Below, in pieces: positions 15,732-38,645 of a stretch of 38,645 nt of DNA. Below the pieces are notes generated by a model that was not told the DNA's origin, did no database searches, and saw nothing but the letters and a program-made list of their open reading frames with translations. The stretch's first letter is position 1. Each line of letters begins with the position of its first letter. The DNA lies in NCBI GenBank assembly GCA_027083815.1, contig JALWMR010000175.1, forward strand, positions 1-38,645, read 5' to 3'. Both the position numbers and the translations under genes were made by a program. This DNA is from Thiotrichaceae bacterium. GTDB taxonomy: Bacteria > Pseudomonadota > Gammaproteobacteria > Thiotrichales > Thiotrichaceae.

Positions 15732-16949
15732 ATGGAGATAACAACCACAATACTGCTTTGGGCATTTGGCCTGGCGGTTATATTAGGCTTTATTGCCAAT
15801 AAAACCAATTTTTGCACCATGGGGGCGGTATCTGATGTCGTTAATATTGGCGATACAGGGAGGATGCGTTCCTGGGTGTTTGCAATGGGCCTGGCAATAC
15901 TTGGCGTAATGGGTTTAAGCCTGCTGAGTTTATCCGATATGTCGCTGGTTGCCAGTAATGATACCGCTAATCCACCCTACCTTACCTCTAATTTTGCCTG
16001 GCCTCGTTATATTCTTGGTGGTATTTTGTTTGGCATTGGCATGACCCTTGGCTCGGGTTGTGGCAACAAAACATTGATACGCATGGGTGGTGGTAATATA
16101 AAATCTCTTTTTGTCTTGTTCGCTATCGGCATCATGGCATACCTGATGATTTTCACCAATTTTAGCTATACTGCGTTTCTTTCCTGGATGGAGCCTGCCT
16201 TTATAGATCTCTCCAGTTATGATATTGACAATCAAGGTTTAGGCAGTGTTATTGCTCACTTTATCAGTAGCGATCCTCAACAAACAACCATTATTGTTGC
16301 AGCTGTCCTGGGCGGGCTATTAATACTCTGGGCATTACTATCCAAAGATTTCAGGGGAAATTTTGATAATATTCTGGGCGGCCTTGTCGTTGGGGCAGTA
16401 GTCGTCGGCGCATGGTGGGTGACAACCGGAATTTTAGGGCAAACTCTATTAGAGGAAGCCGAAATGATGGATGAACGACCTTTTGCAATTGGCGCGCAGT
16501 CATTTACCTTTGTACAACCATCTGGTCATTTAATCCGCTGGACAGAGCTTGGCTTTGATAAAAACATGCTTACTTTTGCTTTGGTAGCCGGTTTTGGGGT
16601 TGTCATTGGCTCTCTTCTTTACTCTCTTATTTCCAGAAAGTTTAGAATCGAATGGTTTGCCAGCTGGAAAGACTTCTTCACTCATATTATTGGTGGCTTA
16701 TTAATGGGTATCGGTGGTGTATTAGCCATGGGCTGCACCATTGGTCAGGGCGTTACAGGTGCATCAACACTGGCAATGGGTTCTTTTTTAACCTTTATCT
16801 CCATTGTCTTTGGCAGCGCACTCACCATGAAAATACAATACTATAAAATGGTTTATGAAGATGAAGCCTCCTTCGCAAAAGCACTGGTAGCCAGCCTTGC
16901 CGATATGCATCTGCTACCCAATAGCTTACGCAAACTGGATAAAGTCTAA
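15732..16949 (+). CDS. YeeE/YedE-family (sulfur/thiosulfate-type) transporter
   Basis: NKTNFCTMGAVSD, GSGCGNKTLIRMGGG, MGCTIGQGVTGAS conserved Cys motifs, multiple TM segments. Confidence 0.85.
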   Translation: MEITTTILLWAFGLAVILGFIANKTNFCTMGAVSDVVNIGDTGRMRSWVFAMGLAILGVMGLSLLSLSDMSLVASNDTANPPYLTSNFAWPRYILGGILFGIGMTLGSGCGNKTLIRMGGGNIKSLFVLFAIGIMAYLMIFTNFSYTAFLSWMEPAFIDLSSYDIDNQGLGSVIAHFISSDPQQTTIIVAAVLGGLLILWALLSKDFRGNFDNILGGLVVGAVVVGAWWVTTGILGQTLLEEAEMMDERPFAIGAQSFTFVQPSGHLIRWTELGFDKNMLTFALVAGFGVVIGSLLYSLISRKFRIEWFASWKDFFTHIIGGLLMGIGGVLAMGCTIGQGVTGASTLAMGSFLTFISIVFGSALTMKIQYYKMVYEDEASFAKALVASLADMHLLPNSLRKLDKV

Positions 16950-31361: not shown

Positions 31362-31805
31362 ATGACTATAACAGACACCTCAAGGATCCTTAATTACATA
31401 AAGATTTCAGATCAAATCAGCACATCGGGGCAGCCCACACCGTTGCAGTTTCAGGATATTGCTGATGCTGGCTTTAGCACCGTTATTAATCTTGCCATGC
31501 CCGATTCGGATAATGCTCTTCCTGATGAAGGTGGCTTTGTTAGCGAACTTGGCATGAACTACTTTCATATTCCGGTTCCTTTTGATGCGCCGACACCAGA
31601 GCATTTACACCTGTTTTTAGCCCTTATGGAAATTCTTCAAAAAGAAAAAGTATGGGTTCACTGCGCCCTTAATATGCGCGTTTCTGCATTTATGAGACAT
31701 TATCAGGAACGTATTATGAAACGCCCTGCCAATGAACAGATCGCCATGCTAGCAGGCTGGCAACCGGATGAAATCTGGCAAAAATTTATTGAGATAAAGT
31801 ATTAG
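31362..31805 (+). CDS. Protein tyrosine phosphatase-like (DUF442-like) protein
   Basis: ISTSGQPTPLQFQDIADAGFSTVINLA, VHCALNMRVSAFM loop. Confidence 0.75.
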   Translation: MTITDTSRILNYIKISDQISTSGQPTPLQFQDIADAGFSTVINLAMPDSDNALPDEGGFVSELGMNYFHIPVPFDAPTPEHLHLFLALMEILQKEKVWVHCALNMRVSAFMRHYQERIMKRPANEQIAMLAGWQPDEIWQKFIEIKY

Positions 31806-32027
31806 AGACCTTTGCATGACAGATAAGACGGATAAAAAATTGCTTAGCCGAGCAACGCGAGACAACAGCTTTAGCTGACCCGTTAGGGTGAGGCGTTGTT
31901 TGCCGAATAAATTTCCCTGATTATTCGTATATTTTCGGTCAGTAGCCCTGCTATTACCCTCAAATCTACAAAAAATCGGGAAGATCACGCTAATTTTTCT
32001 CTCGCCATGCTCTCATTCAAATATATC
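31805..32027 (-). mobile_element. MITE-like element, 223-bp form, reverse orientation (copy M3)
   Basis: gagacctttgcatgacag...cattcaaatatatc; 5-bp direct repeat TATTA at 31800-31804 and 32028-32032; same length as M1. Confidence 0.88.
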
Positions 32028-32038
32028 TATTAAAAAAA

Positions 32039-32068
32039 ACCTTTTCCCCAAAGTGGGGAAAAGTTTGG
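32039..32068 (-). terminator. Terminator downstream of the anti-sigma gene
   Basis: CTTTTCCCC-AAAGT-GGGGAAAAG hairpin with T tract on the minus strand. Confidence 0.75.
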
Positions 32069-32088: not shown

Positions 32089-32826
32089 CTAAATAGCGAT
32101 ATACTTCCACCCTTTCTTAAGGTGGTCGACTACAAATTGAACGGCCGATGGAGCTACTTCAACCTCATCGACTAATTTAACATCCTGCCCTTTCTTATGA
32201 AGCTCGTAGATTTGATTGTTACAGGCAACAAAGTGTAAGCTCTTGTAGAGACCACTCATGTTTCGTATCCGCTGGCGCACTTTATTGTCTGTATTGGTCC
32301 TAAGCAAATCAATACCCCCAGCGCTGGTTACAACATAAACCTGGGTGCCTGCCTGCTTATATTTGTTTAACAACTCTTCGGCTTTATCCAGAGTCTCATT
32401 AAACTTATCTTTGCCTGAACGACCCAGGTAGATAATCACCTTGTTTTCCGGATTTGGAACACTCGGTAGTGCGGTTGCTTGCTGATCTATGGCTGCAACC
32501 GAATGATTGCGATTATCAGAAGAAATAACATCCGAGCTAATATATCCGCCCAGGAAACCCAGGCCTGGCATCAATAAAAAGGCAGCAGCTGTCGTCTTTA
32601 AATGATAAGACTTGGCTTTAACATTTATTTTAGCCGTATTTTCATTATCAAGCGGGTAGGCAAGTTGCAGCAATTCTTTAACATAATGAATATCACAGGC
32701 CTCATTTCGTAGCGCATTATTCTCATCAAGCGTCTCCATGAGTGCTTTATGCTGTTGCTCATCCAGCTCGCCATCAATAAAAGCGTGCAAAATCTCCTTA
32801 TCATTGAAGTGTTTTTTAGAGTTCAT
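32089..32826 (-). CDS. Membrane anti-sigma factor with C-terminal DsrE-like domain
   Basis: N-terminal EILHAFIDGELDEQQHKAL; one TM segment; C-terminal KVIIYLGRSGKDKF...LHFVACNNQIYELHKKG...GWKYIAI resembles the secreted DsrE-like protein at 33635. Confidence 0.75.
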   Translation of the reverse strand: MNSKKHFNDKEILHAFIDGELDEQQHKALMETLDENNALRNEACDIHYVKELLQLAYPLDNENTAKINVKAKSYHLKTTAAAFLLMPGLGFLGGYISSDVISSDNRNHSVAAIDQQATALPSVPNPENKVIIYLGRSGKDKFNETLDKAEELLNKYKQAGTQVYVVTSAGGIDLLRTNTDNKVRQRIRNMSGLYKSLHFVACNNQIYELHKKGQDVKLVDEVEVAPSAVQFVVDHLKKGWKYIAI

Positions 32827-33371
32827 TATTTTATCCTTCGTAAAGTTTGACGTTGCCGTATGTTTGAATGCTTTCTAATACTAATCAGCTTTTTCTTTAA
32901 GGATGCGCGCGCCCGACTTAAGCGGCTCATCACCGTACCAATTGGAATATCCAATATTTCTGCTACATTCAAATAGCTACAACCTTCCAGATCCACCAGG
33001 GTAATGACTTGTCGTTGAGACATCGGCAATTCCGAAACGGCATGCTGAACTCGTAATACCAGTTGTTCTTCCGATAAAATACTCTCGGGTGAATCTTCTT
33101 CCAGTGAATCTATATCATCCAAATCGGTCGTTGGTTTATATTTACGTAAATACTCCATCCAGTTATTGTGCAATATTCTAAAAAGCCAGGCATCCAGACT
33201 ATTAACATCTTTTAACTGATGATGTTTTTGTAGTGCTTTGCTAATACAATCCTGAACCAAATCATCAGCCAGCATAGCATCATGACACCATGAAACAGCC
33301 AGACGATATAATCGCTCCCGGCGTTGCTCTATCTGATTATCCAGCTTTTTAGATCGTATGAAACTCAGCAT
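32826..33371 (-). CDS. RNA polymerase ECF-type sigma factor
   Basis: Region 2 ADDLVQDCISKALQK...LDAWLFRILHNNWMEYLRK; region 4 MSQRQVITLVDLEGCSYLNVAEILDIPIGTVMSRLSRARASLKK. Confidence 0.93.
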   Translation of the reverse strand: MLSFIRSKKLDNQIEQRRERLYRLAVSWCHDAMLADDLVQDCISKALQKHHQLKDVNSLDAWLFRILHNNWMEYLRKYKPTTDLDDIDSLEEDSPESILSEEQLVLRVQHAVSELPMSQRQVITLVDLEGCSYLNVAEILDIPIGTVMSRLSRARASLKKKLISIRKHSNIRQRQTLRRIK

Positions 33372-33526
33372 TTACGGTTCTCTTCTTATCAGGCTGTTAG
33401 GTCTTAGATACTTTGTTATACCTTAATGATGGAGTAAGGCATCTTTTATTCCCATTATATTTTAATTAAAGTGGAATATTACAGCCACTAGATACATCTG
33501 AAGAACGGGTATGATTTTTACCTATA

Positions 33527-33603
33527 GGAACCTTTGCACAAGAGGATGACGAGAGAAAAATTAGCGCATTTTTTATCCATCATATCTTTTGTGCAAAGAT
33601 CTC
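33527..33603 (+). mobile_element. MITE-like element, 77-bp minimal form (copy M5)
   Basis: ggaacctttgcacaagaggatgacgagagaaaaattagcgc...atccatcatatcttttgtgcaaagatctc. Confidence 0.85.
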
Positions 33604-33634
33604 TAATAATAAATAAACCACTAGGAGTTCGACT

Positions 33635-34081
33635 ATGAAAGCTATTAAAGGAATACTCATGTCATTATTTTCGGCATGTCTTTTGTTTGGATTTATTAAT
33701 ACGGCCAGTGCCGATAGTGCAGGGGCAACAAAGCACAAGCTGGTTATTCAAGTCAGTACCGATGATCCACGAACACAAAAAATTGCCATGAATAATGCAG
33801 TCAATCTGCAAAAACTCTATGGACTTGATAATGTCGATATTGAAATCGTTGCTTATGGGCCAGGTTTGGGATTGATGACTAAAAAAAGTCAATATGCTAG
33901 TCGTGTTAAAAGCCTTGCTATGCAAGATATAAAGTTCACTGCCTGCATGAATACCATGAATAAAATTAAAGCAAAGAAAGGGCATTTACCAGCCCTCACT
34001 GAAGGCGTTACTACCACAAAAGCTGGAGTATCCAGAATTATGGAATTACAGGAACAGGGCTATGCTTATATACGCCCATAG
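33635..34081 (+). CDS. Secreted DsrE-family protein
   Basis: Signal peptide (LLFGFINTASA); KLVIQVSTDDPRTQKIAMNNAVNLQKLYG; FTACMNTMNKI Cys motif. Confidence 0.82.
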   Translation: MKAIKGILMSLFSACLLFGFINTASADSAGATKHKLVIQVSTDDPRTQKIAMNNAVNLQKLYGLDNVDIEIVAYGPGLGLMTKKSQYASRVKSLAMQDIKFTACMNTMNKIKAKKGHLPALTEGVTTTKAGVSRIMELQEQGYAYIRP

Positions 34082-34118: not shown

Positions 34119-34147
34119 CTCCCCCGGTCAGGTACCGGGGTTTTTTA
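34119..34147 (+). terminator. Terminator after the DsrE-like gene
   Basis: CCCCGGTcaggtACCGGGG followed by TTTTTT. Confidence 0.88.
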
Positions 34148-34243: not shown

Positions 34244-34675
34244 ATGCTTTTTCTGAAACATAATCTGGATTATATGGTATTTGGCCTATTAGGCTTTATG
34301 AGCTTTCTGATGGTCTGGTTTGTTATTGAGCGTTACTTTTATTATTCACGCATCAAGCTAGATAATTTTAAACATGCGGATAATCTCAATGTGGCGCTTA
34401 CCAATCATCTCACCATTATCTCAACTATTGGAGCTAACGCGCCCTACATTGGACTGCTAGGAACGGTTATCGGCATCATGCTAACCTTTTATGATATGGG
34501 TCAAGGCGGTAAGGTCGATGTTCACACTATTATGACTGGACTGTCTCTGGCATTAAAGGCCACAGCAGCAGGACTTGCGGTCGCAATTCCTTCCATTATG
34601 TTTTACAACGGCCTGCTAAGAAAGGTTGATGTACTGAACGCAAAGTGGAGAGAGCTGCAAGATAACGGAGCATAA
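34244..34675 (+). CDS. exbB: ExbB/TolQ-like energizer protein
   Basis: IGANAPYIGLLGTVIGIMLTF...LSLALKATAAGLAVAIPSI. Confidence 0.9.
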   Translation: MLFLKHNLDYMVFGLLGFMSFLMVWFVIERYFYYSRIKLDNFKHADNLNVALTNHLTIISTIGANAPYIGLLGTVIGIMLTFYDMGQGGKVDVHTIMTGLSLALKATAAGLAVAIPSIMFYNGLLRKVDVLNAKWRELQDNGA

Positions 34676-34693
34676 ACCCCTACAAACTGGCAT

Positions 34694-35083
34694 ATGAAAC
34701 GTTTTGACCAGATTAATGTAATTCCCTTTATCGACATTATGTTGGTATTGCTGGCTATTGTATTAACAACGGCGACTTTTATCTCACAGGGCCTAATTGA
34801 GGTAAATCTTCCTGAGGCAAGTAGCGCAGAGCCACTTCAAGAGACAGACCTGAAAAATCTTGAAATCACCATTAATTCAGACAATGAAATTTTTCTCGCT
34901 GGTAAACGCGTTGATCCACAAAACTTATCTCAGGCACTACAAAAGATTCAAGCCGAAAGACCGGTGACTCTTCGCGTCGATAAACAGGTCATGTTTAAAC
35001 ACTTCGTAAAAGTGATAGACCTACTGAAAAGGAATAATCTCGAACAGTTTTCAATCGTGACGATAGAGAGCAATGAACAATAA
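34694..35083 (+). CDS. exbD: ExbD/TolR-like protein
   Basis: NVIPFIDIMLVLLAIVLTTATF with conserved Asp. Confidence 0.9.
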   Translation: MKRFDQINVIPFIDIMLVLLAIVLTTATFISQGLIEVNLPEASSAEPLQETDLKNLEITINSDNEIFLAGKRVDPQNLSQALQKIQAERPVTLRVDKQVMFKHFVKVIDLLKRNNLEQFSIVTIESNEQ

Positions 35084-36239
35084 TGTAATAGGTTTCATCA
35101 TTTCAGGTTTACTGCACGCAAGCATCTTTAGCGGTGTGGCACTTTTAAACAAAGAAGAAAAAAACGAGAAGACCCCAGCAGAAAATAAAATTGTTCTTAA
35201 CGTAAAGCTATTTAAAACACAGCCAGTCAAACCCTCACCCAGCCTTGGGCCAATAGCACAAGCTTGGAAAGATAATAAAAAAGAAGAAGTCAAAAAAGAA
35301 AAAAACACCACCAAAACTGACAAAACTTCATTGAATCCAAAACAGGTTGTAGTGCCTGCCAAAGCACCGCAATTACTAAAAACTATTGATTTAAAAACCA
35401 GAGAACCAGAAAAAAAGATACCTTTAGAAACAATCAGGAAAGTTGGCAAAACAAAGAGCACCACAAATAAAAAAACCAATAATAAGCCTTTAATCAAAAA
35501 GCCCAGACGCAAACTTGCCGGTAAAAGTGTAAAGAAAAAAATAGCGAGAAAAACAAATAAGCCCAGAGTATTAGCTCACCCCAAAAAACCTGAACAAAGA
35601 ACCGTAACAAAACGCCTGAAAAAACCGAAAAACACCTCAAAACGACTTGTTCGGCGCCAACCAAAACAGGCTACTCGTCGAACGACAGCCATTCGCACTA
35701 TACAAAAGAAAACTATTTTAAAAGCGCCCAGGCGAAGCTACCCTGCCCATCCAGTAGGCAAACCTCGCAGACCAGTAAAACCCGCAAGGCATGTGACCAG
35801 GCTAAAAACACCGTCATCCAGGTCTCACCCTGCTTCCAGACAAATTACGCGAAAACAGCCTCGACATAATTCATATCAGCCCCAAAAAAATGCGCCTTCA
35901 CACACTGTAAAAGCTCGCCCTAAAAATGTCGTAACGGCAACAACAATACAGCTAAACAAGCAATATAAATCCCGGTTACAACGCCTTATTGTGGCAAATA
36001 AGCATTACCCTAAACGAGCTAAACGGCACCGTCAACAAGGCAAGGTAACAGTCTCTTTTAGGGTTTCTCATAGCGGTATTATCAGCAATATAAGAATCAT
36101 AAAAAGCTCAAACTATGCCAGCCTTGATAATGCCGCTTTGCAGGCTATTAAACGCTCTTCTGCCAAGTTACGTTTTCTTCCTGGCATGTCAAAAAAATCT
36201 TTAAATCTTAGCATCACCGTTAGTTATATTTTAATGTAA
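35073..36239 (+). CDS. tonB: TonB protein with unusually basic linker
   Basis: N-terminal SGLLH (SxxxH) anchor; C-terminal YPKRAKRHRQQGKVTVSFRVSHSGIISNIRIIKSSNYASLDNAALQAI. Confidence 0.88.
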   Translation: MNNNVIGFIISGLLHASIFSGVALLNKEEKNEKTPAENKIVLNVKLFKTQPVKPSPSLGPIAQAWKDNKKEEVKKEKNTTKTDKTSLNPKQVVVPAKAPQLLKTIDLKTREPEKKIPLETIRKVGKTKSTTNKKTNNKPLIKKPRRKLAGKSVKKKIARKTNKPRVLAHPKKPEQRTVTKRLKKPKNTSKRLVRRQPKQATRRTTAIRTIQKKTILKAPRRSYPAHPVGKPRRPVKPARHVTRLKTPSSRSHPASRQITRKQPRHNSYQPQKNAPSHTVKARPKNVVTATTIQLNKQYKSRLQRLIVANKHYPKRAKRHRQQGKVTVSFRVSHSGIISNIRIIKSSNYASLDNAALQAIKRSSAKLRFLPGMSKKSLNLSITVSYILM

Positions 36240-36275
36240 GCTACTGTTTTATATATTATTATTCTTTTTTTCGGC

Positions 36276-36289
36276 TTGATAATTATCAA
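36276..36289. promoter_or_regulatory. Candidate Fur box
   Basis: Perfect palindrome TTGATAATTATCAA about 75 bp upstream of the TonB-dependent receptor. Confidence 0.5.
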
Positions 36290-36361
36290 TTAACCTAAAT
36301 CAAGGCCTATAAATTATTTACTTGCTCTACTATAAGCTAATTGAAAAAAGAGGGTCATGCC

Positions 36362-38281
36362 ATGCAAAAAAACCTGACCAAGAGGTCTATGATCTGTAGC
36401 GCAATCTATGTGGCAATTCACACCACCAGTGCCCAGGCAGCAGATGAATTACAGCAACTAGATGATGTAATCGTAACAGCGACCCGTTCAGAAATTAGCA
36501 CAGCAGATGCTCCCGGCAGTGTTACCGTTATTAGCAGACAGGATATTGAACAAAAGAATAGCGATATTATCGTCGATCTGGTTCGATCCACCCCTGGAGT
36601 AAGCATCCGCGGCATTGGCTCTGGCGGACGAAAATCAATCAATATTCGCGGCATGGAAAGCAAACACACCCTGATACTTATTGACGGAAAGCGGGTTCCA
36701 TCCAGCAATGATGTTATTGGACCCAATACCGATTATCAGTATGACTGGATTCCAGGTGACCAGATTGAACGTATTGAAATCGTGCGCGGGCCAATGTCCG
36801 TTTTGTATGGCGCTGATGCTTTAGGTGGCGTGATTAATATCATTACACGCAAACCAAACAACAAACTGTCACGCTCTTTCAAACTCAACGGCTATCTCGC
36901 CAATGGCGATTCATCCAATGACGGCAATGGTCATAATATTGACTTGCGCATTAGTGGCGGCATTAAAAAGAACCTGCAATTGTCACTTAATGCACAACAA
37001 TCACGTCGTGACAGTGTAGATAGCCAATTAAAGAAAGGCCAGTCAGCCATTGAAGGACGTAAAAAACAACAAGCAAGCTTGACCATGAACTGGCAACCCA
37101 AAGAGCAGCATAATATCAAACTGGATATAAGCACCGGACAAGAAGATCGTTGGCAAGATACTGCAACTCGCAAAAAGAAGCTTTATCAAAGTCGTTATGA
37201 TATTGATAGAAATCAGTATTCATTAGGCTGGAAATGGATCTTCGGTGAAAAAAACGCGTCACTGCGTATTTATCAAAGCAAAGTAGATATTAATAATCAT
37301 GCTACAAATGGGGTAAGAGCCACAACTCCTCAGGCGCTCAAAGATACCACTCTAGAGGGAAACTATGCCTTTCCAATAGGTGACAAACAGTTTCTCACAA
37401 CTGGCTTTGAGCATCGCAAGGAAGAGCTAAACAATGCACGTTTAAAAAATGGTAAAGATGATATTACCCTCAATGCACTCTACCTACAGGATGAAATTGA
37501 CCTGACGGATAACTTACTGTTTACACTCGGTGCCAGGCTGGATGACCATAGCGCCTTTGGTCAGGAAACCAGTCCACGAGCATCATTAGTGTGGAGTGCA
37601 AACAACAAGCTAACCCTAAAAGCCAGCTATGGCCATGGTTTTAGAGCGCCCAACATCAAGCAGGCATCAGCTGATTATGTTTTTACCCTGGGAAAGATAA
37701 AGGTAACTGGCAATGATAAACTCAAAGCAGAAACAAACAATGCTTTTGAACTGGGTGCAAATTATACCAAAGGAAAATACAGTATTGATGCTTCAATCTT
37801 TGACAATAGAGTAAAGAATCTAATAGAACTGACCGGGCCTATTACCAATAGAACCTATCAAAATATTAGCAAGGCTCATCTCAAGGGTATTGACCTTAGT
37901 AGCAAGGTAGCTTTGACCAGAAACCTTGATTTAAAGATGAGCTATCAATATCTTGATGCAAAAGACAACGATGACAATACTCTAACACATCGGCCAAGGC
38001 ATACTATTTCAAGTGGTCTAGCATGGGACTATAAAAGCTGGAAACTAAACCTGAACGCCGAATATGTATCACCTCAAAAAATTGAGCACAATAGAGTCAC
38101 AACCGATGTGCCGGGCTATACACTTTGGAATGCTGGCGTAGGAAGACAACTCAATAAGCATTTCAAGTTTACAGCCAGTCTAGATAACGTAAGCGATGTC
38201 CGTCTTGAAGATAAATCACCTGCTTTTTTGCATGAAGAATATCCACGAACCCTGAAGCTGGGCTTAGCAGGTACTTTCTAG
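36362..38281 (+). CDS. TonB-dependent outer membrane receptor (CirA/siderophore-like)
   Basis: TonB box DDVIVTATR; plug VDLVRSTPGVSIRG, IERIEIVRGPMSVLYGADALGGVINIIT; C-terminal Phe. Confidence 0.92.
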   Translation: MQKNLTKRSMICSAIYVAIHTTSAQAADELQQLDDVIVTATRSEISTADAPGSVTVISRQDIEQKNSDIIVDLVRSTPGVSIRGIGSGGRKSINIRGMESKHTLILIDGKRVPSSNDVIGPNTDYQYDWIPGDQIERIEIVRGPMSVLYGADALGGVINIITRKPNNKLSRSFKLNGYLANGDSSNDGNGHNIDLRISGGIKKNLQLSLNAQQSRRDSVDSQLKKGQSAIEGRKKQQASLTMNWQPKEQHNIKLDISTGQEDRWQDTATRKKKLYQSRYDIDRNQYSLGWKWIFGEKNASLRIYQSKVDINNHATNGVRATTPQALKDTTLEGNYAFPIGDKQFLTTGFEHRKEELNNARLKNGKDDITLNALYLQDEIDLTDNLLFTLGARLDDHSAFGQETSPRASLVWSANNKLTLKASYGHGFRAPNIKQASADYVFTLGKIKVTGNDKLKAETNNAFELGANYTKGKYSIDASIFDNRVKNLIELTGPITNRTYQNISKAHLKGIDLSSKVALTRNLDLKMSYQYLDAKDNDDNTLTHRPRHTISSGLAWDYKSWKLNLNAEYVSPQKIEHNRVTTDVPGYTLWNAGVGRQLNKHFKFTASLDNVSDVRLEDKSPAFLHEEYPRTLKLGLAGTF

Positions 38282-38429: not shown

Positions 38430-38543
38430 TTATTCACGTTAGCTGGATAAACAGGCCCTGAAAAAGCCCATAAATAATGCAGCTATCTCTATCTGTTTAT
38501 GATGTAGCAAACTTTGCTTACTATTTTATTAGTTTTTCTTTCA

Positions 38544-38645
38544 GAGACCTTTGCATGAGAGTATGGCAAGAGAAAAATTAGCGTAATTTTCCTGTTTTTT
38601 TGTAGATTTGAGGGTAATAGCAGGGCTAAGGACCGAAAATAAACG
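38544..38645 (+). mobile_element. MITE-like element (copy M6), truncated by the window end
   Basis: gagacctttgcatgagagtatggcaagagaaaaattagcgtaattttcctg... matches M1/M2 from the left end. Confidence 0.85.

Follow-up and report, generated by a model that had tools for sequence, protein, structure and literature searches.

Which signal would be read by an ECF sigma factor whose anti-sigma partner ends in a DsrE-like domain outside the cytoplasm, and which genes would it switch on? The question is raised by three genes in a 38,645-nt stretch of DNA from a Thiotrichaceae bacterium (GenBank contig JALWMR010000175.1), and the whole stretch is called the window here. An original prediction, made from the letters of the DNA, had described a sigma/anti-sigma pair lying divergent from a gene for a secreted DsrE-like protein, and all three genes were found where it had placed them. 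We consider it rather likely that they form an autoregulated ECF switch, in which the periplasmic DsrE domain would sense reduced sulfur and which would control sulfur-trafficking and Sox genes. The module probably senses reduced sulfur outside the cytoplasm.

The first gene of the operon (32826..33371, minus strand) encodes an ECF sigma factor of 181 aa. The protein matched Sigma70_r2 (PF04542, E 4.5e-12) and r4_2 (PF08281, E 1.9e-15) above the Pfam cut-offs and TIGR02937 of NCBIfam with 84.9 bits (cut-off 42.9). It is a short protein with Sigma70 regions 2 and 4 only, as is usual for the ECF class, and the two Pfam matches bear out the ECF assignment of the original prediction. The stop codon of the sigma gene is overlapped by the ATG of the anti-sigma gene (32089..32826, minus strand), and the two ORFs are co-operonic. 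A sigma ORF is also found immediately upstream in most of the orthologous anti-sigma loci. Past the anti-sigma gene lies an intrinsic terminator (32041..32063, minus strand) with a 10-pair stem followed by a T run.

The anti-sigma factor, identified by profile, hhalign and structure evidence, has 245 aa. Its layout is a helical cytoplasmic N-terminus (residues ~1-56), a single transmembrane segment (~78-96) and a periplasmic DsrE domain (~126-245). The hydrophobic segment is the only one and is modest (window mean hydropathy 1.41), and a positive-inside charge pattern, which favours the N-inside orientation, was present in 64 of the 68 distinct full-length anti-sigmas. The protein is thus co-operonic with a sigma gene and has a single transmembrane segment with its N-terminus inside, as expected of an anti-sigma factor. 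Matches of the N-terminus were below cut-off, both to RseA_N in Pfam (15.1 bits against 24, E 0.034) and to MucA (PDB 6in7, E 1.4), and three helices were predicted there. So from the layout that had been proposed, the hydrophobic segment and the DsrE domain were recovered, while the N-terminal anti-sigma region reached sub-threshold similarity only. The zinc-binding anti-sigma (ZAS) class was rejected, because neither HX3CX2C nor CXXC occurs in the sequence; the single Cys of the cytoplasmic part is Cys44.

The DsrE domain is encoded at 32089..32451 (minus strand; residues ~126-245 and the stop codon), as delimited by the alignment with MTH1491 (126-242) and by AlphaFold. The window anti-sigma gave no DsrE match when compared directly with Pfam and NCBIfam, and its BLASTP alignment with the secreted protein of the window was weak (19% identity, E 0.012), so the proof of kinship rests on profiles and structure. 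PF02635 was matched by 3 of 13 anti-sigma orthologs (best E 1e-6), and a 13-ortholog profile matched PDB 1l1s (MTH1491) with E 3.3e-17 over residues 126-242; in a second anti-sigma profile, Cys202 was aligned with a Cys of MTH1491. Comparison by hhalign of the anti-sigma with 18 secreted DsrE proteins gave a probability of 99.7% and E 1e-26. The AlphaFold2 model had pLDDT of ~88 across residues 129-245, and its best Foldseek match was again 1l1s (E 1.3e-7, TM 0.83 on target), together with ST0148 and YchN; further DsrE-family structures and those of DsrEFH matched more weakly. The C-terminal domain is a genuine DsrE fold with sequence kinship, though it is missed by Pfam. The fold that had been predicted for residues ~110-245 was recovered by ortholog profile, by hhalign and by AlphaFold2/Foldseek, and the PF02635 search that had been suggested for both proteins gave a match above cut-off for the secreted one and not for the window anti-sigma on its own. 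The missing Pfam match and the BLASTP value would also suit an ordinary ECF pair that stands by chance beside an unrelated sulfur gene, its DsrE resemblance being spurious. This explanation is contradicted by the profile, fold, synteny and promoter evidence; fold and conserved synteny already refute it, and we give it practically no weight.

The divergent gene (33635..34081, plus strand) encodes a DsrE-family protein of 148 aa, with a typical Sec-type signal sequence as judged by eye and a single Cys (Cys104) in the mature part. PF02635 was matched with 28.4 bits (gathering cut-off 22.7), and in Foldseek the model had a TM on target of 0.93 with 1l1s and 0.69 with chain A of DsrEFH (2hy5). These results agree with the signal-peptide DsrE-like protein of the original prediction. 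An intrinsic terminator with a 7-pair stem followed by TTTTTT (34122..34140, plus strand) separates this gene from exbB. Further secreted DsrE-like proteins are encoded elsewhere in the same genome (contig C127:62-499 and C27:606-1082); one of these adjoins cytochrome/nitric-oxide-reductase-like genes and a Crp-type regulator, and one has a possible Tat-like N-terminus.

In the predicted models of the anti-sigma and the secreted protein, the conserved Cys closes the same beta strand. The two proteins had been suggested to share one Cys, and C202 and C104 indeed align with a Cys of MTH1491. Cys202, Trp240 and Tyr242 are invariant in 68/68 distinct full-length anti-sigmas, and the equivalent Cys is also invariant in all 18 aligned secreted proteins. 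Exactly one Cys is present in the periplasmic part of 67/68 anti-sigmas and within the last 118 residues of 45/46 secreted relatives. The single Cys of the periplasmic part argues for a carried sulfur group or an intermolecular bond, and against an internal disulfide.

A search for other loci of this kind, as had been suggested, detected the full-length anti-sigma in 67 of 369 sampled gammaproteobacterial genomes. Within a phylum-wide sample 3 of 399 genomes matched, all of them of the same class (Gammaproteobacteria). A profile search of genome contigs with a narrower alignment gave 11 named loci, and named carriers include Thiothrix fructosivorans, T. caldifontis, T. lacustris and Candidatus Thiothrix singaporensis. 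In a tree of 128 columns with an arbitrary root, every anti-sigma DsrE domain fell in one clade (100/97), and the one other row inside it is an anti-sigma truncated by a contig end (L064). Most simply, this topology suggests that the fused DsrE domain arose once.

The gene neighbourhood was compared in 69 full-length loci, a few of which are cut by contig ends and two of which (L059 and L078) are the same place. Within ~4.5 kb of the anti-sigma gene there was a separate DsrE gene in 40/69, a porin-like gene in 29/69 and soxB in ~11/69. The module of Thiothrix is embedded in the sox cluster: soxB is divergent from the sigma gene, and genes for DUF4395, secreted DsrE, soxY-like and soxA-like proteins come next. 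At another locus (L119) the module adjoins soxX-, soxA- and soxB-like genes. The porin-like family (~470 aa, e.g. L077:9411-10820(+)) has the look of an outer-membrane porin, and Pfam gave no match for the one member tested.

When spaced word pairs were counted without bias in the intergenic regions between the divergent genes of 35 loci, one motif emerged, on both strands; it was refined to TGGAATAWW-N13/14-CRTCTW and has the typical shape of an ECF promoter. Of the 35 loci, 29 carry it on the sigma strand, 26 on the divergent strand and 23 on both, where dinucleotide shuffles gave 0.14, 0.16 and 0.0, respectively. The A at position 6, which was free in the search pattern, occurs in 55/55 sites. 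The motif was refined on the same regions in which it was counted, so the test upstream of soxB given below is the cleaner, independent one. In the window, the secreted DsrE gene has a predicted ECF promoter at 33473..33498 (plus strand; GGAATATTACAGCCACTAGATACATC), 162 nt before its ATG. A second predicted ECF promoter, which would be autoregulatory, belongs to the sigma/anti-sigma operon and lies at 33428..33452 (minus strand; GGAATAAAAGATGCCTTACTCCATC), 81 nt ahead of the ATG of the sigma gene. Judged by how densely the pattern occurs across the genome, the chance of both sites is ~1e-6. The regulatory link between sigma factor and secreted protein that had been hypothesized is strongly indicated by these paired predicted motifs on both strands.

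The frequent separate DsrE gene, which usually has the motif where it is divergent, would also suit an arrangement in which the DsrE domain of the anti-sigma is unreactive with sulfur and joins the secreted DsrE protein in mixed oligomers, the latter being a co-regulator as RseB is for RseA. The signal would then be sulfur carried by the secreted protein, or the titration of that protein by Sox partners, with feedback as the result. The two domains are homologous and have the same predicted order of secondary structure, and DsrE-type subunits make up a hetero-oligomer in DsrEFH (2hy5). Against this, no DsrE gene lies nearby in ~29/69 loci, some of them cut by contig ends, and Cys202 stays invariant in the anti-sigmas even so, which accords better with direct chemistry. 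We regard such co-regulation as unlikely, if still worth weighing, and prefer a sensing of reduced sulfur by the Cys of the anti-sigma DsrE domain, whether direct or by way of the secreted paralog.

The exbB/exbD/tonB/receptor genes (34244-38281) were considered as part of the module and rejected: a terminator precedes them, the genome-wide motif search gave no match before them and they are absent from the recurrent neighbour families. The window also contains a YeeE/YedE-like sulfur transporter ORF at 15732-16949, ~15 kb from the module.

SoxB was present in 66/67 genomes with the module and in 88/302 others (Fisher 1.5e-28, a value inflated by species relatedness). The only module genome with no SoxB match (G091) is 93% complete. 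We then compared the regions upstream of soxB (1.5 kb each) between 40 genomes with the module and 40 that encode SoxB but lack the module. The motif was present in 11/40 and 0/40, respectively (p 4.4e-4), and by family in 7/26 and 0/30 (p 0.003). All of these sites were within <=275 nt of the soxB match, the antisense control gave 0 and 0, and none of the soxB genes concerned is adjacent to the module. With the pattern used, the motif was absent before soxB in the other 29/40 module genomes, which counts against sox control. The strict motif had 57 sites in 12 module genomes (18 for the reversed control), and the genes after it included soxB, soxX-like, soxY (PF13501), YeeE/YedE transporter (PF04143), secreted DsrE-like and DUF302 genes. 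The link to reduced sulfur in the original prediction becomes stronger by the co-occurrence with soxB, the synteny and the motifs before sox genes in relatives.

Some motif matches fall inside genes or precede genes without an obvious sulfur role (TPR, HAD-like), and the porin-like gene is a frequent partner of the module; these would fit a switch by which sulfur oxidisers respond to envelope or redox stress in general, and in which the DsrE domain is structural or thiol-redox and the sox genes are just one part of a wider response. A lone periplasmic Cys allows no intramolecular disulfide switch, nearly every module genome has SoxB, and sox and YeeE/YedE genes recur among the motif targets. 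A stress switch is therefore improbable in our opinion, more so than co-regulation by the secreted protein, and a dedicated sulfur sensor remains the preferred reading.

In the genome of the window, soxB is on contig C59 and dsrEF-like genes are on C68. The motif was not found upstream of this soxB, so direct sox control in this strain is rejected on present data and the sox connection rests on the relatives. The genome-wide motif count was 23 against 33 for the reversed control; it was not in excess, and a wide regulon in this genome is therefore not claimed. The only further promoter-placed motif of the GGAATA form is on contig C233 (L225:962-2876; GGAATAAAACTAGCCAAATATGCATC). The gene 135 nt downstream of it encodes a protein with a PhnD-like periplasmic-binding N-terminus and is followed by a kinase-like ORF. 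The predicted regulon in this genome is supported for the module and the secreted DsrE gene, and perhaps includes the kinase gene.

The mechanism that we infer would run as follows. The N-terminal part of the anti-sigma would hold the sigma factor at the membrane. When reduced sulfur is present in the periplasm, the lone Cys202 would be loaded, as a persulfide or thiosulfonate, either directly or via the secreted DsrE paralog. A change of conformation, of oligomer or by proteolysis may then free the sigma factor, which would act at TGGAATAWW-N13/14-CRTCTW promoters to transcribe the operon that encodes it and the divergent gene for secreted DsrE; among related bacteria, it may transcribe the neighbouring porin-like gene, soxB, soxX, soxY and YeeE/YedE genes as well. 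A DsrE protein of Metallosphaera (DsrE3A) takes a thiosulfonate from tetrathionate on its Cys, and reacted with tetrathionate only, not with persulfide or polysulfide (PMC4175335). Cys chemistry of such a kind is thus plausible for the anti-sigma. A broader view is tentative and, in our estimate, somewhat short of even: sulfur on the Cys of periplasmic DsrE would be read by the homologous anti-sigma domain, and the flux of reduced sulfur would set Sox expression in many gammaproteobacterial sulfur oxidisers.

The module resembles the RseA/MucA-type systems in its sigma-then-anti-sigma operon, single transmembrane segment, helical cytoplasmic N-terminus, periplasmic sensor part and (predicted) autoregulation. 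It differs from them in having, as its periplasmic part, a DsrE domain of the sulfur-carrier type in which a single Cys is invariant, in an N-terminus that matches below cut-off, and in predicted targets that belong to sulfur oxidation instead of envelope stress. ECF control of sulfur enzymes is known for RpoE1/RpoE4 (ECF26) of Sinorhizobium meliloti and a relative in Starkeya novella, where the ECF/anti-sigma pair is next to and controls periplasmic sulfur-oxidising enzymes and is induced by thiosulfate or sulfite-generating compounds (PMC3511301, PMC6527743). Those systems are alphaproteobacterial, their targets are the sulfite dehydrogenases SorT/SorAB, and a DsrE protein is not mentioned in these papers (PMC3511301, PMC6527743); the likeness lies in gene arrangement and function. 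In Arcobacter, a member of Campylobacterota, ECF sigma factors with broad, overlapping regulons raise or lower sox operon expression, and a DsrE anti-sigma is not reported (PMC3445524). The TspS/TspR two-component system of Acidithiobacillia also has dedicated sensor genes beside sox genes, but uses a histidine kinase and a sigma-54 activator in place of an ECF/anti-sigma pair (PMC12194929).

With MTH1491, YchN and DsrEFH (PF02635) the domain shares the fold, and its conserved Cys has the position seen in the MTH1491 subgroup. The known members are soluble proteins, sulfur-trafficking or uncharacterised. In the module, by contrast, one copy makes up the periplasmic part of an anti-sigma, to which it is fused, and another version is secreted. 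No DsrE-domain anti-sigma was found in the open-access literature searched; the ECF re-classification (10.1093/nar/gkaa1229), which is outside that scope, may list the group. Apparent matches of DsrE with ECF in PMC2729926 and PMC3511301 were discarded, as they are DsRed.

Only a few regulators dedicated to Sox thiosulfate oxidation are known, and in the literature searched we found no Sox regulator covering these gammaproteobacterial lineages. What is predicted here is a direct, widespread one, for which the promoter, a candidate sensor residue and a set of targets can be named and which is present in culturable genera such as Thiothrix. If the prediction is true, a sulfur-trafficking fold has been recruited as a signal sensor, apparently once, by fusion.

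In the module genome with no SoxB match, the locus (L083) still has genes for the anti-sigma, a DsrE protein and a porin-like protein, as well as the motif on both strands. The motif is upstream of DUF302 proteins in two genomes (L179, L215), from which a role of DUF302 in sulfur oxidation seems possible. The window also has related short repeats at 31800-32039, 33510-33608 and 38527-38645, whose ends are of the AGAGACCTTTGCA type and whose arms are inverted. For example, 31800-31840 is 85% complementary to 33568-33608, and the value for 31926-32038 with 38533-38645 is also 85%. They look like MITE-type insertions, and one of them separates the start of the secreted DsrE gene from its predicted ECF promoter.
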